The notes beneath the pieces are model-generated. The model did not search any database. It was given only the letters and a program-made list of their open reading frames with translations, and was not told the origin of the DNA. 50,761 bases of DNA, from assembly GCA_017965425.1 (NCBI GenBank), contig JAGCPY010000079.1:1-50761 (forward strand). Reading direction: 5' to 3'. Within the stretch, counting starts at the first letter, position 1. Every line of letters starts with the position of its first letter. Positions 28,447 to 42,346 of this stretch are shown here, one piece after another. Position numbers and translations under genes: made by a program. The stretch comes from Bacteroidaceae bacterium. GTDB lineage: Bacteria > Bacteroidota > Bacteroidia > Bacteroidales > Bacteroidaceae.

Positions 28447-28557
28447 AACCATGGATTCCGAAGAATCGCGGCGCCAGTCGCTGTAATCTAGCCGCATCCC
28501 CATTGTGCAACGCCGCCTAAGGGTAAAAGAATCCTATAAATCCTTTAATCCGTGGTT
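28447..28557. repeat. Second AACCATGGATT/AATCCGTGGTT repeat overlapping a gene end
   Basis: The outer arms match the repeat at 28189-28242; the interior carries GC-rich CGGCGCC/GGCGGCG-like sequence. The right arm supplies the last codons and stop of the AraC-type gene (28534). Confidence 0.6.
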
Positions 28558-29730
28558 CTGCTCTTCTGTTTCGCGCATCCAGGAGGTGACGCTCTGGCCC
28601 ATGCGCTGTTTGAAGGCGGCGCTGAAGGTGCTGTAGCTGCGGAAGCCGCTCTCGCCGGCCAGCTGCCGGGCGGTGAAGGGACGCTGGGCAGCTACGGCCT
28701 CGCGACAGAGGTTGATGAAGTGGCGGATGCGCAGGTCGTGGATGTAGGTGTAGTAGTTGGTGCCCTGATTGGCGAAATACTGTCCGAGATAGTAGCGGTT
28801 GATGCCGATGGCTGCCGATAGCTGCGTCAGGCTCAGGTCGTGCTGCAGGTAGAGCTTCGTGTCCTCGCAGTGCTTGGTCAGCAATGGGCCAATGCGGGAC
28901 AACGCCTCAGCTCTGACTGCCTCATTCCCGGCAGTCTCTTCCTGTGAGGGAGTGCCGTCGTTGTCTTGCCCGTCCGTATTATCTGCAGGGCATTCGTTCT
29001 CCTCTTCTTCTTGGGAGGGGTTGGCGGTGAGGCTGTTCGTGAGGCTTGGCAGCGTCTCTACGCGCCACAGCAGCAGGCCGATGATCACGAAGTCGGCGAT
29101 ACGTAGCAGGTAGATCAGCGGGCCTTCGACCGAGAACCCATAGATAGCCACCAGCAGCAGGAACAGGATGAGCAGCGTATGGCTCATCCACACCTCCTTG
29201 TGCTCCAGGTCGGCGAAGTTGTCGCGCAACCACCGCTTGTATTCCATGACGGCTTTGGCCATGTAGACTGTAAAGAGGGCGTATAGCGACAGCGTATAGA
29301 TAATGATGGGGGGCACGAAATTGACAGCGGGCCAGACAAACTGCAACCCTCCGAGTATCACGATGGGGAACGTGGCTGCTACGAAGGGCCATACTGGCCT
29401 GTAGCGGTCCTGTAGCATGGAGAGCAGTGTGCCGGCGATAGTGATTGTCAGCGTCACGCAGTCGAGAACGATGAGTGGCAGGTAATTCCACGACTGTTTG
29501 TCACCCCAAAAGATATAGGCAAGTATCCACCAGATATGTCCCAGTGCTATAATGCCGAAGAGCGCTGCCGCCCATCGGCGCAGTCGCACGGGAGGAGTGA
29601 TGCTGGGCGCGATGGCCTTTCCCTTGCACAGCAGCAGGTAGAGGCAAAAAATCAGAGCCGTCGCTATCGCTCCGCCGTAGAGCACCATAAACAGTATGAC
29701 CTTTGTGGATATATGTTCAAGAGCTTCCAT
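28534..29730 (-). CDS. Membrane-bound AraC-type transcriptional regulator
   Basis: A 398-residue protein with six or seven predicted membrane helices in residues 8-240 (for example VILFMVLYGGAIATALIFCL and VWPFVAATFPIVILGGLQFV). An acidic linker (SQEEEENECPADN) follows, then a C-terminal AraC/XylS DNA-binding domain of two helix-turn-helix units: LSLTQLSAAIGINRYYLGQYF, and ARQLAGESGFRSYSTFSAAFKQRMGQS. The layout resembles the 7TM-type Bacteroidetes regulators that sense a membrane or envelope signal. ATG 29730 is chosen; 43 upstream in-frame codons overlap the promoter. It is divergent from the surface-protein operon and likely controls it. Confidence 0.85.
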   Translation of the reverse strand: MEALEHISTKVILFMVLYGGAIATALIFCLYLLLCKGKAIAPSITPPVRLRRWAAALFGIIALGHIWWILAYIFWGDKQSWNYLPLIVLDCVTLTITIAGTLLSMLQDRYRPVWPFVAATFPIVILGGLQFVWPAVNFVPPIIIYTLSLYALFTVYMAKAVMEYKRWLRDNFADLEHKEVWMSHTLLILFLLLVAIYGFSVEGPLIYLLRIADFVIIGLLLWRVETLPSLTNSLTANPSQEEEENECPADNTDGQDNDGTPSQEETAGNEAVRAEALSRIGPLLTKHCEDTKLYLQHDLSLTQLSAAIGINRYYLGQYFANQGTNYYTYIHDLRIRHFINLCREAVAAQRPFTARQLAGESGFRSYSTFSAAFKQRMGQSVTSWMRETEEQNHGLKDL

Positions 29731-29800: not shown

Positions 29801-29831
29801 CAAAGGTACAACTTTTTTTGAACATCTGCAA
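29801..29831 (-). promoter_or_regulatory. Promoter of the AraC-type regulator gene
   Basis: The minus strand has TTG, a 20-nt spacer and TACCTTTG (plus 29801-29808), a full consensus match 70 bp before the ATG. The first TGCAA element of the phased array overlaps the -33 box. Confidence 0.7.
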
Positions 29832-29970
29832 TTCTGAGCCTCAAAAATTGCAATCTCAACTTTCAGCTAATGCAATTTTTACTTTCAGCTAATGCAATCG
29901 CGCTTCACGGGAGTACAAATTAAGAGCCGGCGATTTGCGGGTAATGCAAAAAATATTTCGGCTAATGCAA
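29827..29970. promoter_or_regulatory. Helically phased TGCAA array between divergent promoters
   Basis: TGCAA occurs at 29827, 29849, 29871 and 29893, an exact 22-bp period, then again at 29945 and 29966 (21 bp apart). The best copies extend to ACTTTCAGCTAATGCAAT (29859-29876 and 29881-29898) and TTTCGGCTAATGCAA (29956-29970). Paired 21-22-bp direct repeats are a usual layout for AraC-type dimers. The array fills the space between the two promoters. Confidence 0.7.
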
Positions 29971-29997
29971 AATCTTTCGTGGCGAGTTTTTTTAGGC

Positions 29998-30028
29998 TTG
30001 GCCAGATGGTAGATTTTGAGTAACTTTG
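29998..30028 (+). promoter_or_regulatory. Promoter of the surface-protein operon
   Basis: TTG (29998-30000), a 20-nt spacer and TAACTTTG (30021-30028). It lies 52 bp before the decayed fimbrillin ATG and 27 bp downstream of the last TGCAA site. Confidence 0.72.
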
Positions 30029-30079: not shown

Positions 30080-30540
30080 ATGATGAATCGTAAAATGAAA
30101 ACAAGCGGCATGCTGCTCTGCCTCGCGCTCTGTGCGGCATGCTCCAGTGACAATGACGAGCCAGGGGTGGCACAGCCCCCTGTGGCGTCGTATCCGCTGA
30201 CCATTGAGGTGACGGAAACAATCTTTTGAATACAGAGAAGTTGCTTGCCACTGGTTCCTTTACCCTGCTGAATGGCAATGAAACGGACTCCTACCTGTTT
30301 ATGATTCCTCAGACACTGACTCCATGGGACCCCCTTAACGACATCGCTTCAGTTACCGATAAATGCTATCTGGAGATTGAGTGCGAAATCACAAAGAATA
30401 ATAGCCCAGTTTACAGCGGCACGGCCTATATCCCCTTCGGTGCCGCCTTCACTGCCGGCAACCAGCACGACGTGAAAATCAATATAGGCAAGAATTCCCT
30501 CTACAGCGGTACAAACACTAAAGTTTTCAATGATAATTAA
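30080..30540 (+). pseudogene. Truncated, frameshifted fimbrillin-like lipoprotein gene
   Basis: The first 49 codons encode a lipoprotein start (MLLCLALCAACSSDNDEP, lipobox Cys then SSDNDE) and the opening of a fimbrillin (YPLTIEVTET). They end at TGA 30227-30229. In the next frame, from about 30220, 105 codons encode LLATGSFTLLNGNETDSYLF and IPQTLTPWD, the C-terminal part of a fimbrillin. Intact members have roughly 300 residues, so a large internal deletion as well as the frameshift is likely. It is the first gene after the operon promoter. Confidence 0.65.
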
Positions 30541-30543
30541 GTT

Positions 30544-30678
30544 ATGAAAAAGACATATCAAAATCCCCAAATACACATCGTCGCCCTGCACGGTCCTGTC
30601 GTGATGCTGGGAGGTTCTCAGCAGGTGAAAGAGTACAGGAAAGAAAACGATTTCTTCATCGGCGATGTAGATGAATAG
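30544..30678 (+). CDS. 44-residue peptide of the MKKxYxxP type
   Basis: Starts MKKTYQNPQIHIVALHGPVV and ends NDFFIGDVDE. Bacteroidales carry many short unassigned peptides with this pattern (MKK-aromatic-xxP, a hydrophobic strand, then a small/acidic tail), often next to fimbrillin or large secreted-protein genes. There is no signal peptide. It starts 3 bp after the decayed fimbrillin and 43 bp before the giant gene, so all are on one transcript. The function is unknown; a leader, regulator or ribosomally made peptide are possible. Confidence 0.6.
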   Translation: MKKTYQNPQIHIVALHGPVVMLGGSQQVKEYRKENDFFIGDVDE

Positions 30679-30721: not shown

Positions 30722-33700
30722 ATGTATCATTACGAAAAAATTCGACGAGGGCGGCCGTGGCAGATACTGTTGCTGACAGCGCTCTTGGCCTGGCTGCTGC
30801 CACAGAGGGCGGCGGCGGATCTCTCGTATGAGGACGATCCCGACAACTACACAGTGGAACTGGGTGGTTCGAATGTCATCTACTTCACGGCTCCGTGCTA
30901 TGACACGCGTGGTGCGGACACGTGGATCTACGACGGCAACCTGCGGGTGTCGGTAGATGGTGCTGATCCAGTCACCATCTTTCACTGGGAGTCCAAAGCG
31001 GACATCGACAACGACAAAACAACGTTGCCGGTGAACTTCACTACCACTGCCGACGGTTTCTTCGACATTACGCTGGGTAATTCGAGGAACACCTTCCGGC
31101 TGACCAAGAACAATGGCGGATGGAAAGACGTGGTGCGCAACAGCGACGGCAAGACCTTCGGGTTCAGTGCCGAGTGGGCTGTGCCCTACAACCTGCTGGG
31201 CAAGAAGCTGAGGTTCACCTGGTATGTCAAGCGTAACGGTAACTCTGCCACTGTCTTAGACCGTGAAGTGCCAGGCCTTCAGGCGAAGGAGATCTCCATG
31301 CCGGCGGCAAGCGCAAAGATGGAGCCTTTCGTCTCGCTGCCCATGCTGAGCGCAAACAATCCAGGCAAACTGGAAGTGCCCTGGTTCTTAGCTTCCGACA
31401 GCATTGTCAGTGCCCAGTACGAATATACCGACGATACTGGCAAGCGCCATGTGGAAAAGATTGAGAACGTGAAGAGCAGTTCCATCCTGCTCGATGCCAA
31501 CGTGCCCTACCGTAACTTCCGCGTCGTTTGCAGCTACAAGGAGGCGAGCGACAAGGGGTCTTACCTCATAGAGAACCAAGGGTCTGCGGTGCAGAACATT
31601 CCCTTGATTCACGCCCCCGTCGGACTGACCGCCCGCCAATTGGACGGCCAGGACCTGAAGGTGGAAGTGAAGTGGAACATAACCTATCCTGACGATGAGG
31701 ATTTGACACCCACCGACTTCTTCGAGGTGCAGCGTTCGATTACTGGTGAGGAGAAGGACTTCGTCACCATACAACAGTTGCCTTACATCGCTGTCAGCAA
31801 GCAATCGACCTATACCTTCGTTGACAACACCCTGATGGATGACATCACTCCTGACATGCTGGTGAATGGCGGTACCTTAGACAAGCTGACCTACCGTGTG
31901 CGCCGTACCATCACCAAAGACTGGAACTGGGCCAAGAACAGTTGCTTCGCGAGCACGAAGAGCATTGTCGATAACCTGCACCTGCTGCGCATTGCCGACT
32001 ACACGGCTGATTGGGAGGACAAGAATGCCTACACCGTCCGCGTGTCGTGGAACTATGCCGACGAGCATGGGGCAGTGTGGGACGAGCGTGCCCAGATGGT
32101 GCTGCGCGTCATGTCGCGCAACCGTGCCGGCGCGGTGGTCGATAGCCTGATTTACAATCTCGACCAGAACGACCGCACACAACGCTACAAGATTGTGAAC
32201 CTCACGCGCTCGTGCGTGAACTATGACATAGAGATGTATGTGGAGAAGGGCGAGTCGCCCATCAACGACTTAGCCGATGTGACGGAATACTACTTCCCCA
32301 TCCGCACGGCTGCCGACTGGGAGACATTCCGCGACAAAGTGCAAGCTGCCGAGGGTAAGTACGACGTGAACGCCCGCCTCTATGCCGACATCCCAGAGAC
32401 TAACGTGTTTATTGGCTGGACTACAAACTTCCCCTACCGAGGAACATTCGACGGTAACGGACACACACTGACCGTCAAACAACCATACGATGAAGAGTAC
32501 ATGGCCCCCTTCCGCTATGTGGGCAATGCCACCTTCCGCAACCTGCACACGGCTGGCACCATCAGTATCAGCAATAAGTTTGAAGCAGGCCTTATTGCCT
32601 CTGTCCAGCTCAACTCGACAGTGGATATTGAGAACTGTCGCTCGTCTGTGACACTCAACAACACTATGAATGGCGATGGTAACAACGGTGGCTTCATAGG
32701 CATTGTAAATTCCAATGCTAATGTCACGTTCCGCAACTGTAAGTTCGACGGAAGCTTTGAGGCTGCTAATAGCACCAAAAACGGCGGTTACGTGAGCTAT
32801 GCCAACGGCTCTGTCACCATCGAGAACTGTCTTTTCGCCCCCGAAAGCATCAACACCAAGGCCGAAAACAGCGCAACATGGAGTCGTGGCTCTGGAACCT
32901 TGACGGTCATCAACAGCTATGCCACCCGTGGTTTTTCAGAGGTGGTAAACATCGGTACTGTCGATGACTGGAAAACGTTTGTCAAAAAGGTTGAAGAAGC
33001 CAATGGCCAGTATGACGTGAATGCCATCCTCACTGCCGACATCACTGTGACGGGTAAGGGAAAGGATTATATTGCAGGCTATACAGCCAATTATCCTTAT
33101 CGCGGCACCTTCGACGGTAATGGCCACACGCTGAACCTCAACATTTCAGACGATGCCTATCACACGGGGCTCTTCTCTCACGTGGCCAACGCCACCTTCA
33201 AGAACCTGAAACTGACAGGAACTGTTTCCTGCTCGAAAAACCGTACAGGTAGTTTGATTGGCACCGTTGATGAAAACTACACGGTCACGATAGAAAACTG
33301 CCATTCGTCAGTCACACTCAAAACTTCCGTCAGTGGCGATGGCTGTATGGGCGGCTTTATAGGCTTTATCAATCTCAATGACAAAGTGACGTTCAGCAAC
33401 TGTAAGTTCGACGGCAGTTTTGATGGAGCCAACAGCAATGATAACGGTGGTTATGTTGGCTATGCAAGAAGCCGTGTATCCTTTGAGAACTGCCTCTTCA
33501 TGCCTGCCAGTGTCAACACCGACCCCTACGGCAGCGATACATGGGCACGCGGTGAAAACTACACGACTTCGAACTGCTATGCCACCAAGGAGTTCTGCCA
33601 CCTCATCAACAACTTCAGTGACTGGGAAGAGTTCAGAACTGCGGTGGACAATCGTGGCAGTAAATCCGTCAATGCTATTCTGAATGCAGACATTTCTGCA

Positions 33701-36700
33701 AATACTTCCATATCGAACTTCAAGGGTGTGTTCGATGGCAATGCTCATACCATCACGATGAGTAATGGCCCGATGTTCGCTTCTGCCAGTGACTACACCA
33801 TCAAGAATCTGCACGTCAAGGGCAGTTACGGTGGCGACATGCACATAGCCGGACTTGTGAGCAGCAGCGGTGGCTCAGACCGCAACTACATCGAGAGTTG
33901 CTGGGTATCGGTCGGTATCCATTGTAACGCTTCACATGCCGGCGGCTTCATCGGCCACGCAAACCAAACTCCGATCAACATCAACAACTGTCTGTTCGAC
34001 GGTGCCATTAGCTGCAATAACGATGGAAAAAATGGAGATGATGCCTGGGGCGGATCATTCATCGGTTGGTCAGGCGATGCAGATCACCACGTAACCAATT
34101 GCTTGGATGACGGAAGTTTTTACTACGTGAACCACCAAGGATTCTGCTGGACGAATTGGAATTATTGGGGTAATACTGGCAACAGCTCAAATAACTATAC
34201 CTACAAAAACTGGCCCGAGGTTCATACCTCTGGCATCAGGCATAACAATATCAACTATGTTGTCGAGAAACTGGGCGATGGCTGGTATGTGGATGGCGAA
34301 AACGCGCTGCCCAAGATGACCAGACGTGACACATGGAACAACGTAGGCTCCCTGTCGGCAAACGATCTGGCCAAGAATCTGGGTTCTGACTGGAAGGTGG
34401 ATGGCAACAAAGTGGTGCCTGTGATGGGCAGTAGCATGACTGGTGCCACTGAGGCAGAATTTGCACCATACTTCACCTACGGCTGGACGAAGGAGGGTGA
34501 CAAGCTCGTTCCTGAAACCACGACGGTCGAGGAGCCCGTTTACGCCGAGATTACCAAGCCGACGCTTCCCAACTTCTACCACAAGAACACGGGTACAATA
34601 GACAAGACACTGGTGACGACGACGCGCCAGAGCAGCGTGCTGCTGGCCTGGAACACCGACGGCAACCCCATCGACTACTTCACCGTGATGCGCCGCGTGA
34701 AGGGTCAGGGCGACGATGCTTGGAAAGAGATTGCCACCTTCTTGGATGATATGAGCTATGAGGACACCAGTGTGTCGCCTCTGGCTATCTACGAATACAA
34801 GGTGCTCGGCGTGAATGACTGCGAGGGCCGTGACTCGACCGCGACCGAGGTGAAGCCGGGCGAGTGCAAGCACACGGGCCGTGTCGATGGCTATGTGCGC
34901 TTCAACGACGGCACCAGTGCTGCTGGCATTCAGGTGGACATCAACTATAAAGGTAAAAAGGTGATGAGCGTCTTCACCGACGATAGCGGACACTTCGTGG
35001 CCGACGAACTGTCGTACCAGGGCGGTACGAGCGTCACTTACGATGTGAGTGCCGTGGGCAAGAACGGCGAAGATTTCTCGCCAAAGGGCTTCAGCGTAAC
35101 CTTCGATGCCCATAGCAACGACGAGACGCTGCGCGAAATCTCCATCCTGAACGGCAAGCGCTTCTCGGGCTACGTGATGTACGACGGCACGAGCATCCCC
35201 GTGAAGGGTGCCAACTTCAAGGTGAACGGCAAGAAGGTCTATAACACGAAGGGCAAACTCTTAGAGACGGAGTACGACGGAAGCTTCTCGTTTCGCGTGC
35301 TGCCCGGCAACGACACCATCCAGGTGGTAATGGACGGCCACAACTTTACGAATGACGGCTACTTCAAGGGCGCCACTGGCCACAACTTCACCGACGACGT
35401 GGCTGGCATCTACTTCTACGACGCCACGAAGGTGAAGCTCGCTGGCCGCGTGGTCGGCGGCGAGGAGCAGGGACAGAAGCCTTTGGGCAACAACCTCTCG
35501 ACAAACAACCTGGGCGACTCGCTGACCATCGTGCTCACCTTGGAAGGTGACAATACGTCGTGGTTAGTGTTTGACAACCTGAACCCGAACAAGACGGAGC
35601 GCGAGGAGGTGGTGCGCCACCAGCGCAACGGCCAGAAGCACTTCACGTCGGTGAAGACCCAGCGCAAGCGCATGACCGTATGGCCCGACCCGACGACGGG
35701 CGAGTATGAACTGCTGCTGCCACCAGTACGCTGGAAGGTGCAGCAAGTGTATTGCACAGGCTATCCCACGCTGTTCCAGGAAGGACAGGTGAGCGAGGTC
35801 ATCGACCTGACCGACTGCCTCACCCCGAACACCACTACCTACACGGGCAGCTACAAGGATGTTGACACCATTACGGTGAAAGACCCCAAGCTGACTTACA
35901 ACGCCATCTACAATCGCATCTACCGTGCACCGGTGGAGGTGACCTACAAGCAGTTGGGCTACGACTCGTTCGACTATTTCGGCGACAAGAACTACTACGC
36001 CAGCGAACTGACGGGCGAGACGGTGGAGGTGCCTCTGGCATTCCCGAACCCCGCCGACACGACGAAGGCGGTTTACAGCTTCACGTACCCCGTGTTCAGC
36101 ATTGATCGCAAATATACCATCGAGTTGCAGGTGGGCGAGAACTATCTTTACAACAACGACCCAGCCGGCAAGGTTGACATCGTCCGACTGGGCGGCGGCA
36201 TGGCCATGATGCAGAACGGCATGAAGCCTGGTTCATACGATGAACCGGTGATGATAGACAGCCTCGGACGGGCACGCTTCACCGTACAGGCCAGCCAGAC
36301 CACCAACATGAAAAAATCGCTGAAGACGGTGACCTTCACCGTGATGCGCGACGGAACCTTCCTTGAGGCTAAGCCCCTGCAGGGCTATGTGCTCAATATG
36401 TTCCCCGTTGGCGAGAGCACAGAACTTCTGACCGATGGTCAGCCTCTGCTGTTCGATATCCTGCGTGACCCGCCTGGATCCTACAGTTCGAACACGCTGG
36501 CCAAGGGCGCTACACTGAACTATTCGTACATGATGAACCTGACGCTGATGGCAGGTATCATGATTACCTACAAGGATGGTAAGAAACTGCAAACTTTGTC
36601 TGCCACCGTGGTGGCACCTCAAGGTTCAGGTACCGCTGTCGGTCCCATCAGTGCCGGAGAAACACAGGAGGGATCTATTGACCAATTTATTTACTCAGCA

Positions 36701-39700
36701 CAGGGCAGCAAGGCCTTCTCTTATACCATGGCCATCGGCAACAACATCAGCACCAGCGGCGACCCGTCGATGGTGGGTGCCGACGCCGACCTCTACATCG
36801 GTGCGGTGCAAAACGTTGTGGTGACACCGATGTCCACCGTCCGCGCCGTGAACAAGAAGATGTTTGACGAGATAGCCGGCCGCCAGGGTGGCATCAACAA
36901 GGCATCTGAGATGACCAAGGACATCGACTATGGAACGGTGGTGAAGATTGCCGAGGGCGTTGATGCCAAGGGTGACAGCATCTACCTGATACGCGACGTG
37001 GCACTGGGCTATGGTCCGAAGATTCAGTCGCAGTTCATCTACTCGCAGAAGCAAATCCTGACGCAGATTATCCCCAACAAGGCGAAGGAGATTGTCGATA
37101 TGATGTTCTGTGGCACCAAGGCCGATGCGCAGGCGATAGCCGACAGGACTGGCAAGCCTGTCTATTGGTCGCTGCGCGAACCCACAGACTCGATGTTTGC
37201 CGTGGTGAACAAGCAATTGTCCGACCGTGCCTACAACTACAACATCGACAAAGCCGAAAAGGGCATCAACTACATGGTGGTGATACCTAATGGCACATCG
37301 CCGGATCAGTTCAACGATGAGGTGACAGAGAAGTACCAGATTATCAAGGCCTGGACGGAGATGATAGCCCAGAACGAGTATGAGAAACTGCAAGCCAGTG
37401 ACCTGCTGACCAACTATGACATAGCAGGTGCTCAAGGTGTGAACTACAGCGAGACCTTCGACAGTAACTTCTCTAACTCATGGACGCACCACTTCCCCGT
37501 TGCCACCGAGGTTGACTACTTCGGCCCCGGCATCAGTTATGCCACTTCGGCCTTCTCTATTGGTGCTACCATTGTGGGCAGTATCCTTGCTTCATTGGAA
37601 GAGATGAAATATTGGAAAAGCCCTGGAGTGGCTACATCCAAGGTGGATATTAGCAAGGACGATGGATGGAATGCGTCGCTTGATTTCGGTGGTAAACTGA
37701 GCCAGTGGACCATTACCCCTGTGGCCTTATACCAGACGGTAGGTGCCAATTCTGAGGCTAAGGCGTTCAACCGTACGGAGAGCTTTACCATTGCCACCGA
37801 CCCGATGAGCCGTCTGAGTGTGGATGTCTATCGCGTGAAGCCCCTGTATGAGTATGATAAGACCGGCTCGTTAGTCCATAACATGATCAATCCACGGTAT
37901 ATCGCTAACGATTCCGTAGGTGTTACCAACATCTTTACGAACTACCAATTCGAGAAGATGACCGATTTGGTGACAGATTTCGTGGGTAAGGAGGCTCGCG
38001 AAGATGGCCTCACAGGTCCGCGTGGCTTCGTCTTCCGTACCCGTGGCGGTGCTACTCAGAATCCGTGGGAAGACCAGCGCACGACGAAGTTCTATGAAAC
38101 GGGACGGGAACTTGATGCCCGCACGCTGAAGATTGTGAACCCGAAGATTCGCTTAGACAAGCAGGATGTGAGCGGCGTGAGCATCAACGACGCAGCCCAC
38201 TTCAAGGTGTATGTGAGCAACGAGAGCGAGAAGCTCGAGGCTACCGAGGGTCTGACTGTTCTACAGTTGTTCTCTGTTGACCAGCTGAATCCCAACGGTG
38301 CGAAGATCAGCGTCAACGGACAGGTGCTGACCACCGCCGGCATGACCATATCGGTGGTGCCGGGCTCGGAAACGGAACTCGATATGGAGGTGCGTGCCGG
38401 CCAGGGTTTCGACTTCATGGGTCTGACCATCGGCGTGATGTCGCCTACCGACGCTGTCAATACCAAGGAACTCGTCTCGTTCAACGTTCACTACCTGCAC
38501 GAGGCAGGAGGCGTGGCCATTGCCGTGCCTGGCGACAAGTGGGTGCTGAACACCAATGCGCAGATGGATTCGAAGCGCGGCTGGTACCTGCCGGTGACCA
38601 TCAACGGCTTTGACCGCCACCAGCACAACTTCGACCATATTGAGTTCCAGTACAAGGAGTCGCAGCGCGGCGATGACTCGTGGACGAACATCTGCTCGTT
38701 CTATGCCGACCCGACGCTGATGTCCAATGCCAACGGCGTGAGGGAACTGATTCCTGAGAACGGCAACATTGTGACGCAGTTCTTCGGCGAAGGTTGGGTG
38801 ATGGAACGCACCTACGACCTGCGTGCCGTGCTCTTCTGCCGCAACGGCAACGACTTCCTGACCACGTCGTCGAAGATCATCAGCGGTATCAAGGACACGC
38901 GCCGTCCGCAGCTGTTCGGCACGCCCGAACCGAAGAGCGGTCTGCTGACGCAGGGCGACGACATCGTGTTCAACTTCTCTGAGGATATTGAATATAACTA
39001 TCTGAGCGCCATCACCAATTTCGAGGTGAAGGGCGAGGTGAACAACGACAACCTCTCTGAGATGGTGAGCGTGCAGTTTGACGGCTCGACAGCCAGCGTG
39101 GAGAGCGAGGCCAAGCGCAACTTCAGCGGCAAGGACCTGACCATCGATCTGATGGTGAAGCCCGCCGAGACGGGACGCGACATGCCGCTGTTCTCGCATG
39201 GCACCAACGGCCAGGAGTTGCATCTGTGGCTGACAAGTGACTTCAAGCTAAAGGCTGTGGTGAACGACCAAACCTTCACGTCTGACGAGGCCATCGTGAA
39301 AAAAGGCTTCACACAGGTGGCTGTCAGCATCAACCAGACAGACAGCCTGCTGACGTTCTTCAACGGCGGCGTGGAAATCGGACATAACAAGCTGAAGTCA
39401 CTCTACACCGGTACCGGTCCGCTCATCTTCGGTCGCGCCAAAGAGCAGAACAGCACGGAGAGCCAGTACTATGAAGGCCGTATGATGGAGGCCCGTCTGT
39501 GGTATGCCGCCATGGACGGCGGACTCATCGGCACGACCTACGGCAGCCGCCGACTGACGGGCTACGAGAGCAACCTCGTGGACTACTATCCGATGAACGA
39601 GGGTTCGGGCGACTATGTCATTGACTACACCCAGGGTGCCAACGCTCAGCTGATAAACGCTTCGTGGGCCATCCCACAGGGCCTGTCGCTACATGTCGAT

Positions 39701-42346
39701 AAGGCCGACAAGGGTGTGCTCTTGGATAAGAACGCCATGAACCGCACCGCCGAACAGGACTACACGCTGATGTTCTGGTTCAAGACCGATAAGGACGGAC
39801 GCGGCACGCTGCTCTCCAATGGTCGCGGACTGAAGGAGGACAACGGCGCTGTGAACCAGTTCCACATCGGCTTCGAGGCCGACACGCTGAAGTACCGATC
39901 CAACGGCTTTGTCGCCAACGTTCCGGGCAACTGGAGCGACGGCAAGTGGCACAACTTCGCCATGACCATGAACCGTGCCCGCAACGTGGCCAACATCTAC
40001 GTGGATAAGGAACTGCGCACGACCTTCGAGGCCGACAGCCTCGGCGGCATCAGCGGCGGCTATCCGCTCATCGGTGCCACCCGCTACGACGTGGTGAAGG
40101 AGAATGGCGACGTGGAGGTGAAGGACGGCGACGACGCCTTGAAGGGTAACGTCGATGAACTGATGTTCTTCGCTCAGGCTCTGCCGCAGCAGCTCGTCAG
40201 CACCTATGCCTCGAAGAGTCCCAATGGCGACGAGGCCGGTCTGATGACCTACCTGAGCTTCGACCGCATCGAGCGTCAGAAGGACAACGACCTGGAACTG
40301 GTGCCCTACGTCTATAGCAAGAAGATCTATCTGGACGACAAGGGCCAGCCCCGCTATCAGCTCGACCCGGAGACGAAGGAACCCACTAATACACTGGTGC
40401 GTGATTATGTGTTCGTCGGTTCTCCCGATGAAATCCTGACGCACTTCGACAAGAAGGACGCTGCACCCGTGGTGCCTTACGAGGAAGTGAAGAACCTGAA
40501 GTTCGGCTTCATCGGACGCGGCAACCAGCTGCTGGTAGAGCTTGACGAGAATGCCGCCCGACTGAACCACCGCAACATCTACGTGACGGTGCGCGACATC
40601 GAGGACAAGAACGGCAACACGATGGTTTCGCCGCAGACGGCCTGCTACTATGTGACCAACAGCAGCCTGCAGTGGATGGTGAACCGCTTAGACGTTACGA
40701 TTAAGTATGGTAGCGGCCAGAACTGCACACTGCCGTTCTACAACAACGGCGCACAGAGCCACACCTACACCATCGAGAACTGCCCGCGCTGGCTCACACT
40801 GAACAAGTACAGCGATGTGATTGCACCCCAGTCGCTGGACTATGTCACTGCTACGGCCAGCAAGGACCTGAATGTCGGTACATATAACGAGATTCTCTAC
40901 CTGACCGACGAGGAAGGCATCACCGAGCCGTTCTACCTGAACCTGACCATCGAGGGCGATCAGCCTGACTGGGCAGAGAGCATCAACAGCGATCTGCTGA
41001 AGAACTTGATGAACATCAGCGGACAGGTGTATCTCTACGACGAGCTGGACACCGATGCACGCGACATCGTGGGCGTCTTTGACAACGAGAACCAGTGCCA
41101 CGGCTTTGCCAACATCATGCACGACACGCAGTCGGGCGAGACGGGCCTCTTCCTGACGGTCTATGACAACCAGACGAGTGGCCGCAAGCTGAACTTCCGT
41201 CTGTGGCAGTATAGCACGGGACGTGAGATTGTGCTGACACCGAAGGACAGTATCAAGTTCCAGAAAGATACCATGTTAGGCACCGACACACCCGTACGCT
41301 TCGACGGCGGCGAGGCCTTCGTCCAGAACTTCAAGTTGCAAAAGGGCTGGAACTGGGTATCGTTCAATCTGAAGAGCGACCAGCTCAGCGACGTGAACAA
41401 GCTGCTAGGCGGCATGAAGTGGAGCGACGGCGACATCCTGACCGACTTGGGCAGCGACCTGACGCTGAACTACGAGGCCGCAGAGAAGCAATGGATTGCC
41501 ACCGGCAGCACTGACACCGTGACCTTCTCGCCGAAGGCGGCGTATGCCATCAAGGTGAAGGAAGACTGCAAGTTCCCGATTGGCGGCACCGTCATCAAGG
41601 AGCAGGACGACCGCACCATCACGGTGAGCAAGGGATGGAACGCCATTGGCTACACACCGATGACCAACCTGACCGTCGAGACTGCCCTCAGCGACTACTA
41701 CGACCAGGCTGAGCCAGGCGACGTGATCAAGAGCCACACCGAGTTTGCCTACTTCACCAAGCAGGGCAACACCGGACGCTGGCGCGGCTCGCTGCAGTAC
41801 ATGAAGCCCGGCGAGGGTTACATGATGCTCCGCAAGGGTGGGACCGATACCGAGTTCACCTATCCGTACTTCGACATGAACAGCAACTTCCGTGAAGACT
41901 GGACAACAGGCGCAAGACGCGCTGCCGCTCCGGCACGAGGCCGCAGCACCATGAGCGTGAGTGCCGTGGTAGAAGGCTTCGAGCCTGAGGAGGGCGATGT
42001 GCTGGTGGCCTACGTAGATGGCGAGGTAGTAGGGGAAAGCCTCACCGCCAACCCCTCTCCGAATGGCGAGGGGAGTATATACTACCTGAGCATAGCTGGC
42101 GATGCTACCGCCAACATCTGGTTCGCCATCGAACGTGACGGTGAGATCGTTGCGGCAACCGGTGAGGTCATGGCTTACCAGGCGAATGCCGTCATCGGCA
42201 GTCCCGACCAGCCGACAGCCATCAACTTCGTGAAGACTGAATACGCAGACGGCCAGTGGTACAGCATCAACGGTATGAAGCTGCAGAAGCGCCCGACGCG
42301 CCAAGGTGTCTATATCTTCAATGGAAAGAAGATTGTCGTGAAATAA
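30722..42346 (+). CDS. Giant secreted surface protein with GLUG-like, FnIII, CNA-B-like and LamG domains
   Basis: A 3874-residue protein. The signal peptide ends near QRAAA|DL (about residue 32). Ig/FnIII-like modules span about 40-520. Three GLUG-type beta-solenoid repeats of about 210 residues start near 570, 790 and 1000 (each with FDGNGHTL or a variant, then GGFIG). An FnIII domain (about 1283-1376) and two carboxypeptidase-regulatory/CNA-B-like folds (about 1386 and 1479) follow. A long unassigned centre covers 1600-2750. Two LamG/concanavalin-like domains lie near 2799-2960 and 3011-3160. C-terminal modules include DIVGVFDNENQCHGFA, KGWNWVSFNLKSD and a tail QGVYIFNGKKIVVK like T9SS sorting signals. 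Uninterrupted over 11.6 kb, so it is under selection. Adhesion or glycan binding is inferred; no catalytic motif is seen. Confidence 0.88.
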   Translation: MYHYEKIRRGRPWQILLLTALLAWLLPQRAAADLSYEDDPDNYTVELGGSNVIYFTAPCYDTRGADTWIYDGNLRVSVDGADPVTIFHWESKADIDNDKTTLPVNFTTTADGFFDITLGNSRNTFRLTKNNGGWKDVVRNSDGKTFGFSAEWAVPYNLLGKKLRFTWYVKRNGNSATVLDREVPGLQAKEISMPAASAKMEPFVSLPMLSANNPGKLEVPWFLASDSIVSAQYEYTDDTGKRHVEKIENVKSSSILLDANVPYRNFRVVCSYKEASDKGSYLIENQGSAVQNIPLIHAPVGLTARQLDGQDLKVEVKWNITYPDDEDLTPTDFFEVQRSITGEEKDFVTIQQLPYIAVSKQSTYTFVDNTLMDDITPDMLVNGGTLDKLTYRVRRTITKDWNWAKNSCFASTKSIVDNLHLLRIADYTADWEDKNAYTVRVSWNYADEHGAVWDERAQMVLRVMSRNRAGAVVDSLIYNLDQNDRTQRYKIVNLTRSCVNYDIEMYVEKGESPINDLADVTEYYFPIRTAADWETFRDKVQAAEGKYDVNARLYADIPETNVFIGWTTNFPYRGTFDGNGHTLTVKQPYDEEYMAPFRYVGNATFRNLHTAGTISISNKFEAGLIASVQLNSTVDIENCRSSVTLNNTMNGDGNNGGFIGIVNSNANVTFRNCKFDGSFEAANSTKNGGYVSYANGSVTIENCLFAPESINTKAENSATWSRGSGTLTVINSYATRGFSEVVNIGTVDDWKTFVKKVEEANGQYDVNAILTADITVTGKGKDYIAGYTANYPYRGTFDGNGHTLNLNISDDAYHTGLFSHVANATFKNLKLTGTVSCSKNRTGSLIGTVDENYTVTIENCHSSVTLKTSVSGDGCMGGFIGFINLNDKVTFSNCKFDGSFDGANSNDNGGYVGYARSRVSFENCLFMPASVNTDPYGSDTWARGENYTTSNCYATKEFCHLINNFSDWEEFRTAVDNRGSKSVNAILNADISANTSISNFKGVFDGNAHTITMSNGPMFASASDYTIKNLHVKGSYGGDMHIAGLVSSSGGSDRNYIESCWVSVGIHCNASHAGGFIGHANQTPININNCLFDGAISCNNDGKNGDDAWGGSFIGWSGDADHHVTNCLDDGSFYYVNHQGFCWTNWNYWGNTGNSSNNYTYKNWPEVHTSGIRHNNINYVVEKLGDGWYVDGENALPKMTRRDTWNNVGSLSANDLAKNLGSDWKVDGNKVVPVMGSSMTGATEAEFAPYFTYGWTKEGDKLVPETTTVEEPVYAEITKPTLPNFYHKNTGTIDKTLVTTTRQSSVLLAWNTDGNPIDYFTVMRRVKGQGDDAWKEIATFLDDMSYEDTSVSPLAIYEYKVLGVNDCEGRDSTATEVKPGECKHTGRVDGYVRFNDGTSAAGIQVDINYKGKKVMSVFTDDSGHFVADELSYQGGTSVTYDVSAVGKNGEDFSPKGFSVTFDAHSNDETLREISILNGKRFSGYVMYDGTSIPVKGANFKVNGKKVYNTKGKLLETEYDGSFSFRVLPGNDTIQVVMDGHNFTNDGYFKGATGHNFTDDVAGIYFYDATKVKLAGRVVGGEEQGQKPLGNNLSTNNLGDSLTIVLTLEGDNTSWLVFDNLNPNKTEREEVVRHQRNGQKHFTSVKTQRKRMTVWPDPTTGEYELLLPPVRWKVQQVYCTGYPTLFQEGQVSEVIDLTDCLTPNTTTYTGSYKDVDTITVKDPKLTYNAIYNRIYRAPVEVTYKQLGYDSFDYFGDKNYYASELTGETVEVPLAFPNPADTTKAVYSFTYPVFSIDRKYTIELQVGENYLYNNDPAGKVDIVRLGGGMAMMQNGMKPGSYDEPVMIDSLGRARFTVQASQTTNMKKSLKTVTFTVMRDGTFLEAKPLQGYVLNMFPVGESTELLTDGQPLLFDILRDPPGSYSSNTLAKGATLNYSYMMNLTLMAGIMITYKDGKKLQTLSATVVAPQGSGTAVGPISAGETQEGSIDQFIYSAQGSKAFSYTMAIGNNISTSGDPSMVGADADLYIGAVQNVVVTPMSTVRAVNKKMFDEIAGRQGGINKASEMTKDIDYGTVVKIAEGVDAKGDSIYLIRDVALGYGPKIQSQFIYSQKQILTQIIPNKAKEIVDMMFCGTKADAQAIADRTGKPVYWSLREPTDSMFAVVNKQLSDRAYNYNIDKAEKGINYMVVIPNGTSPDQFNDEVTEKYQIIKAWTEMIAQNEYEKLQASDLLTNYDIAGAQGVNYSETFDSNFSNSWTHHFPVATEVDYFGPGISYATSAFSIGATIVGSILASLEEMKYWKSPGVATSKVDISKDDGWNASLDFGGKLSQWTITPVALYQTVGANSEAKAFNRTESFTIATDPMSRLSVDVYRVKPLYEYDKTGSLVHNMINPRYIANDSVGVTNIFTNYQFEKMTDLVTDFVGKEAREDGLTGPRGFVFRTRGGATQNPWEDQRTTKFYETGRELDARTLKIVNPKIRLDKQDVSGVSINDAAHFKVYVSNESEKLEATEGLTVLQLFSVDQLNPNGAKISVNGQVLTTAGMTISVVPGSETELDMEVRAGQGFDFMGLTIGVMSPTDAVNTKELVSFNVHYLHEAGGVAIAVPGDKWVLNTNAQMDSKRGWYLPVTINGFDRHQHNFDHIEFQYKESQRGDDSWTNICSFYADPTLMSNANGVRELIPENGNIVTQFFGEGWVMERTYDLRAVLFCRNGNDFLTTSSKIISGIKDTRRPQLFGTPEPKSGLLTQGDDIVFNFSEDIEYNYLSAITNFEVKGEVNNDNLSEMVSVQFDGSTASVESEAKRNFSGKDLTIDLMVKPAETGRDMPLFSHGTNGQELHLWLTSDFKLKAVVNDQTFTSDEAIVKKGFTQVAVSINQTDSLLTFFNGGVEIGHNKLKSLYTGTGPLIFGRAKEQNSTESQYYEGRMMEARLWYAAMDGGLIGTTYGSRRLTGYESNLVDYYPMNEGSGDYVIDYTQGANAQLINASWAIPQGLSLHVDKADKGVLLDKNAMNRTAEQDYTLMFWFKTDKDGRGTLLSNGRGLKEDNGAVNQFHIGFEADTLKYRSNGFVANVPGNWSDGKWHNFAMTMNRARNVANIYVDKELRTTFEADSLGGISGGYPLIGATRYDVVKENGDVEVKDGDDALKGNVDELMFFAQALPQQLVSTYASKSPNGDEAGLMTYLSFDRIERQKDNDLELVPYVYSKKIYLDDKGQPRYQLDPETKEPTNTLVRDYVFVGSPDEILTHFDKKDAAPVVPYEEVKNLKFGFIGRGNQLLVELDENAARLNHRNIYVTVRDIEDKNGNTMVSPQTACYYVTNSSLQWMVNRLDVTIKYGSGQNCTLPFYNNGAQSHTYTIENCPRWLTLNKYSDVIAPQSLDYVTATASKDLNVGTYNEILYLTDEEGITEPFYLNLTIEGDQPDWAESINSDLLKNLMNISGQVYLYDELDTDARDIVGVFDNENQCHGFANIMHDTQSGETGLFLTVYDNQTSGRKLNFRLWQYSTGREIVLTPKDSIKFQKDTMLGTDTPVRFDGGEAFVQNFKLQKGWNWVSFNLKSDQLSDVNKLLGGMKWSDGDILTDLGSDLTLNYEAAEKQWIATGSTDTVTFSPKAAYAIKVKEDCKFPIGGTVIKEQDDRTITVSKGWNAIGYTPMTNLTVETALSDYYDQAEPGDVIKSHTEFAYFTKQGNTGRWRGSLQYMKPGEGYMMLRKGGTDTEFTYPYFDMNSNFREDWTTGARRAAAPARGRSTMSVSAVVEGFEPEEGDVLVAYVDGEVVGESLTANPSPNGEGSIYYLSIAGDATANIWFAIERDGEIVAATGEVMAYQANAVIGSPDQPTAINFVKTEYADGQWYSINGMKLQKRPTRQGVYIFNGKKIVVK
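42052..42073 (+). repeat. GC hairpin inside the giant gene
   Basis: CCCCTCTCC, loop GAAT, GGCGAGGGG. Translated as NPSPNGEGS between the regular strands GEVVGES and IYYLSIAG, so a REP-like unit has become coding sequence. Confidence 0.7.

Follow-up and report, generated by a model that had tools for sequence, protein, structure and literature searches.

What do the phased TGCAA repeats between two divergent genes in a Bacteroidaceae genome do, and which protein reads them? The repeats lie in a window of 50,761 nucleotides, the whole stretch of DNA that we analysed, between a regulator gene on the minus strand and an operon on the plus strand that includes the gene for a giant protein. The initial annotation had placed a promoter-like sequence on each side of the repeats, and we found both. 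That of the regulator occupies 29801..29831 on the minus strand (TTG-N20-TACCTTTG, running from 29831 to 29801), and that of the target operon occupies 29998..30028 on the plus strand (TTG-N20-TAACTTTG), each as read from the sequence. We think it likely that the adjacent regulator, a membrane protein of the AraC type, uses the array as its operator and thereby activates the giant-protein operon.

The target operon begins with a 49-aa open reading frame (30080..30229, plus strand) that has a lipoprotein-like start and is perhaps a fragment; it had no Pfam match when tested from 30083. It is followed on the same strand by a 104-aa frame (30226..30540) with no Pfam or NCBIfam match, by a small frame of 44 aa (30544..30678) and by the giant protein of 3,874 aa (30722..42346). 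The giant protein contains a LamG-like domain (Laminin_G_3 in Pfam, at 3.8e-23), would be located at the cell surface and is the predicted main target. The first target gene seems broken across 30080-30540, where the 49-aa and 104-aa frames are read in different frames and overlap at 30226. Decay or an assembly error could account for this.

TGCAA was present at all six positions claimed for it (29827, 29849, 29871, 29893, 29945 and 29966), with successive spacings of 22, 22, 22, 52 and 21 bp. Each copy can be described as a 17-bp half-site on the plus strand. Half-site 1 (29817..29833; TTTGAACATCTGCAATT; 10.3 bits), which lies over the regulator's -33 box, and half-site 2 (29839..29855; CCTCAAAAATTGCAATC; 12.1 bits) are weak, and half-sites 3 (29861..29877; TTTCAGCTAATGCAATT; 18.7 bits) and 4 (29883..29899; TTTCAGCTAATGCAATC; 17.9 bits) are strong. 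Half-site 5 (29935..29951; TTGCGGGTAATGCAAAA; 11.7 bits) and half-site 6 (29956..29972; TTTCGGCTAATGCAAAA; 20.9 bits) lie at a lag of 21 bp and form the distal and promoter-proximal halves of a conserved pair. The longer motif proposed for the copies, TTTCRGCTAATGCAA, is exact in three of them (starting at 29861, 29883 and 29956) but not in the others. Within the window, 17-bp sites of at least 14 bits occurred only at three of the six array places, as scored with a matrix built partly from the window's own sites. A possible seventh site, TACAA at 29914, was rejected with a score of -7 bits.

The array occupies a unique place in the assembly. Exact TTTCRGCTAATGCAA was found only at those three copies in all 3,728,598 bases. 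Allowing up to two mismatches gave 14 matches in the genome and 13 for a reversed control pattern, so the motif is at chance level outside the array cluster, and this search of the whole assembly gave no motif excess that would point to a wider regulon. CTAATGCAA with up to one mismatch occurred 10 times in the window, compared with 10.5 expected. When the 400 bp in front of the regulator were scanned de novo for self-repeats, a lag of 22 bp emerged with z = 13.6, and none of 60 shuffles scored as high. The word count of the array is ordinary; its clustering and phasing are not.

The regulator (28534..29730, minus strand; 398 aa) consists of seven hydrophobic segments, a linker and a C-terminal AraC-type double helix-turn-helix (HTH). 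The AraC-type domain named in the initial annotation was borne out by Pfam scores above cut-off for HTH_18 (residues 304-386; 38.1 bits, cut-off 33.6) and HTH_AraC (33.2 bits, cut-off 26.6), and the protein has the two HTHs of AraC/XylS regulators. Every NCBIfam match was named an AraC-type regulator, all of them below cut-off. AraC-type HTH families were the only Pfam matches at E values up to 0.001, and neither a histidine kinase nor a receiver was among them. Seven hydropathy peaks span residues 11-221. In the predicted model, a disordered linker joins seven helices to a well-predicted double-HTH AraC fold, at a mean pLDDT of 58 and a pTM of 0.37, with a membrane part of low confidence. A fold search with this model returned no match at E 0.001 or better, and its top ranks were AraC-type DNA-binding domains at E 0.03 or worse. 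Searching solved structures by sequence gave no match at E 0.001. We found no pertinent description of seven-helix AraC regulators in the open-licence literature that we searched, and the passages of PMC12125979 and PMC1183210 that we consulted have no bearing on such proteins. The window's genome encodes a second regulator of the same family (L081, G000:C63:69998-71179; 41% identical), which has its own diverged pair, TGGCAAAATTTACAAAA and AGGCAGAATTTACAAAA, with a lag of 21 and a gap of 49.

We compared the array with the surroundings of related regulators. At E <= 1e-20, 28 of the 101 genus genomes had relatives; at E <= 1e-25, so did 46 of the 399 genomes from the family and 3 of the 119 from the order, the window's genome being counted each time. 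The 105 regulator starts gave 94 distinct loci once identical upstream stretches had been removed. Not all of these loci hold full regulators: the second hits of L020 and L023 are HTH-less paralogs, and some stretches are cut by contig or fetch ends (e.g. L050, L051 and the second hits of L052 and L085); five have fewer than 60 bases of downstream sequence. Fragments and hits lacking the N-terminus, such as G051:C53, G098:C162 and G419:C44, were left out. Pairs were sought at lags of 18-24 bp on both strands, over 450 bp ahead of each gene and over 600 bp spanning its end, with 20 shuffles per region to set the expectation.

A direct-repeat pair of 17-bp sites, 19-22 bp apart, was found near 58 of the 94 loci, compared with 0.25 expected from shuffles, with a matrix derived from sites upstream of regulators in part of these same loci. 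At 22 loci the pair is upstream of the regulator and points towards a divergent target, at 34 it is downstream in a tandem arrangement, and at two it precedes HTH-less paralogs. The 34 downstream pairs are a fair test because the matrix came from upstream regions only. Thus the link between AraC-type direct repeats and the adjacent regulator, first proposed for this one locus, recurs beside related regulators. Among 53 non-redundant pairs the lag was 21 bp in 32, 20 bp in 14, 22 bp in four and 19 bp in three, within a scan that covered only 18-24 bp; such a spacing, about two helix turns, is the one expected of direct-repeat half-sites in the AraC/XylS family.

The distance from the pair to the promoter is nearly constant. 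A -7 box of the form TAnnTTTG lies 46-49 bp past the promoter-proximal repeat in 37 of the 53 pairs. With the distance unconstrained, its start fell at 46, 47, 48 and 49 bp in 2, 23, 10 and 2 pairs, and all other places within 90 bp gave five occurrences. The exact box is absent at 46-49 bp from the remaining 16, several of which have, by eye, a near variant in the same place (TATCTTCG in L101; TACCTTAG in L019 and L043). In the window, 48 bp separate the end of half-site 6 from the target -7 box, the same as in relatives. The expectation that the spacing would be conserved upstream of orthologous operons therefore survived its test. Once the rule had been fixed, two further loci were fetched from other families of the order, and both fit it: L126 has a lag of 21 with TATCTTTG at 47 bp, and L125 has a lag of 21 with TAACTTCG, counted at 48 bp. 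At 36 of the 94 loci, close relatives L053 and L054 included, the matrix found no pair. Seven of these (L030, L033, L077, L078, L080, L082 and L085) have variant repeats at 47-50 bp and L052 has variant repeats visible by eye; others show not even variant repeats.

Of the spacers between pair and -7 box, 10 of the 29 in tandem loci and 3 of the 17 in divergent loci contained hairpins with z below -2, in an analysis restricted by design to pair-to-box distances of 46-50 bp; the unrestricted histogram of distances was made separately. In tandem loci such as L033, L068, L078 and L032, terminator-like hairpins of differing sequence lie between the pair and the target -7 box. We rejected hairpins as a part of the system, as those in tandem loci fit ordinary terminators of the regulator gene.

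The conserved unit is the promoter-proximal pair, to which the window adds four copies further upstream. Of 46 loci, 8 carried more than two scored sites, and the largest number, six, was that of the window; a long phased array is not what these loci conserve. A register of -72 or -71, -50, -21 and 0 is common to L023, L037, L059, L065 and L066, and L125 has the same 22/29/21 spacing. The window's sites fall at -139, -117, -95, -73, -21 and 0. From these few loci, its 52-bp gap looks like 23 + 29, as if the shared register had lost its -50 site and gained three copies upstream. Apart from a third copy in L056, the distal copies have no counterpart in relatives with the GCTAATGCAA site.

The pair belongs to the target promoter, wherever the regulator gene lies. 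We placed 43 regulators on a tree and in a table of HTH residues, these being the proteins of at least 340 aa in one frame among the 50 with a placed pair. The orientation of regulator and target switched at least five times on this tree, and the pair stayed at the target promoter. Between L045 and L050 the regulator gene is flipped, yet the pair and promoter are nearly identical.

One other possibility is that the array is an autoregulated switch like that of araC-araBAD, linking both promoters, with the site on the -33 box repressing the regulator and looping or spreading coupling the two directions. The overlap of half-site 1 with the regulator's -33 box, also noted in the initial annotation, is real, and 22-bp steps connect half-site 1 to the strong sites. 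However, half-site 1 is the weakest copy, the pair lies downstream of the regulator in 34 loci, and the overlap is not conserved. A regulator -7 box could be recognised in 17 of the 22 divergent loci, and the window is the only one of the 17 with a scored pair over the -33 region; at the other 16, between 5 and 114 bp separate the pair from the regulator -33 region. The overlap is thus peculiar to the window among the sampled loci, and autoregulation did not hold up as a general feature: no conserved site over the regulator's own promoter, of the araC-araBAD type, was found in these divergent loci. In compact divergent loci the pair does come near the start of the regulator gene. At four loci (L081, L086, L095 and L106) it is only 5-7 bp clear of the -33 region and could act on the regulator promoter too. 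We regard a switch of this kind as unlikely for the window, though with a real chance of being correct.

Alternatively, the pair could be a repressor operator, with the regulator keeping the target operon off until it is relieved by a signal. A location near a promoter fits either sign of regulation, but the proximal site of the window ends about 25 bp short of the target -33 box, a position that would suit an activator better than a blocker, and 37 of 53 pairs end 46-49 bp from the -7 box, so that the core promoter is left free. A repressor would also contrast with the AraC-type hybrid two-component systems (HTCS) of Bacteroides, which, in the passages of PMC11253607 on this subject, regulate polysaccharide genes through DNA binding that is released from inhibition. 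Repression is accordingly improbable.

The sequence classes of the pairs bear on which protein would bind them. Doubled GCTAATGCAA with a gap of 4-14 bp occurred in 6 of 139 genus genomes, once in each (reversed control, 0), and all six pairs adjoin a relative of the window's regulator. The AAAATNTGC class comprised 8 pairs in 7 of 399 family genomes. The exact doubled TCAGAATCGTAA class was absent from the 399; one such pair is present in L077, whose genome (G094) came from a separate genus search. On the regulator tree, sites of the GCTAA class correspond to a single clade. The C and T of GCTAA, at site positions 7-8, are associated with regulator residues Y327 and H331, both within a modelled helix (326-347). 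We rejected this as a residue-site code, since the class arose once on the tree and so counts as one event, which is no proof.

These classes also weigh on the idea that another AraC-type protein, such as an HTCS, binds the array and that the neighbouring regulator is a bystander. The motifs of HTCS are direct repeats that average 21 bp (PMC3878776, in its passages on these motifs), and pairs without an adjacent regulator exist: 4 of the 8 AAAATNTGC pairs had none within the 1.5-3 kb fetched, and in G336 a regulator is about 13 kb away on the same contig. These four pairs indicate that control is mostly, not always, local. Yet every GCTAATGCAA pair has a relative of the window's regulator next to it, and site class follows the regulator tree, so a bystander role is very improbable. 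That the repeats are neutral local duplications with no regulatory role is hardly credible: the three equal 22-bp steps do resemble duplication, and near-perfect 21-23 bp tandem runs with no known role, unlike the half-sites, lie upstream of the regulator in L045, L064, L065, L066, L079, L092 and L094, but diverged loci, and loci of different families, have the core, the spacing and the promoter distance in common. Neutral duplication could still be the source of the window's extra distal copies.

We therefore favour activation by the adjacent regulator. The protein would be a one-component factor in which a seven-helix membrane part, the presumed receiver of the signal, is joined to an AraC-type DNA-binding domain. 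One AraC domain would occupy each 17-bp repeat. A dimer would place its two domains head to tail, along one helix face, at the promoter-proximal pair (29935-29972). Contact with RNA polymerase would be made from there at a fixed distance, activating the giant-protein operon. The four upstream copies may raise occupancy or seat further dimers.

Genes behind the pairs, named by eye, include lipoproteins, giant proteins and efflux adaptor-like, antiporter-like, amidohydrolase-like and esterase-like proteins. We examined 57 target stretches, of which 13 are shorter than 300 bases, for relatives of the giant protein. Outside the window these were found in L016, L045, L056, L063, L071, L099, L117, L118, L120 and L121, and two short related pieces came from L026 and L104. 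The target operons of L037, L023, L119, L121 and L126 share a family of small membrane proteins. The first target gene is a seven-helix paralog too short to hold an AraC domain in the second hits of L020, L023 and L125 (open frames of 257, 243 and 238 aa). Such paralogs could be dominant-negative partners.

Taken as a whole, a broader reading is possible but tentative: an undescribed Bacteroidales family of membrane AraC activators with seven helices, whose half-sites have diverged from member to member under one rigid promoter code (repeats about 21 bp apart, the proximal end 47-48 bp before TAnnTTTG). This family would control giant surface proteins, efflux and other envelope functions. The HTH-less paralog found in first-target position in some operons could pair with the regulator and damp it, and arrays in the -72/-50/-21/0 register, a remnant of which the window may keep, would seat two dimers. 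If true, regulator-target links and operator positions could be read from sequence in uncultured relatives of Prevotella, and the giant-protein family would be placed under a predicted membrane sensor. The loci would also serve as a natural experiment on the way in which an AraC-type protein bound to the membrane gets to the RNA polymerase of Bacteroidetes, since dozens of them differ in half-site sequence, in spacing and in gene orientation but hardly at all in promoter distance.

We compared the window's regulator with known systems. AraC of Escherichia coli is a soluble arabinose-binding sensor whose araI half-sites lie about 21 bp apart between divergent promoters, with sites that reach into the -35 box. 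The two share an AraC-type domain, direct-repeat half-sites about 21 bp apart and divergent promoters. They differ in the roughly 25 bp that separate the site from the -33 box here, and in the seven-helix membrane part that stands in place of a soluble sensor. The SusR-like regulators of Bacteroides, as described in passages of PMC3878776, sense in the periplasm and activate neighbouring operons. Like SusR, the window's protein would be a membrane regulator with a cytoplasmic DNA-binding end, a direct-repeat motif and neighbouring operons as targets. Its repeats are about 21 bp apart, in contrast to 67 or 77 bp for SusR-like regulators, whose DNA-binding domain is unlike that of other known regulators in the same account (PMC3878776).

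For the AraC-type HTCS of Bacteroides, motif similarity follows the HTH tree and targets are often adjacent, according to the passages of PMC3878776 on their motifs. HTCS carry a periplasmic sensor, a histidine kinase and a receiver, none of which was matched in the window's regulator, and the HTCS passages of PMC3878776 and PMC11253607 describe no fixed distance to the -7 box such as we see here. Because a kinase and a receiver were not found, the regulator appears to work like an HTCS but not to be one. By analogy with what these two sources report, AraC-type HTCS appear to be the nearest published case: they share with the window's regulator a membrane anchor, an AraC-type DNA-binding domain and a direct-repeat motif near 21 bp (PMC3878776, PMC11253607).
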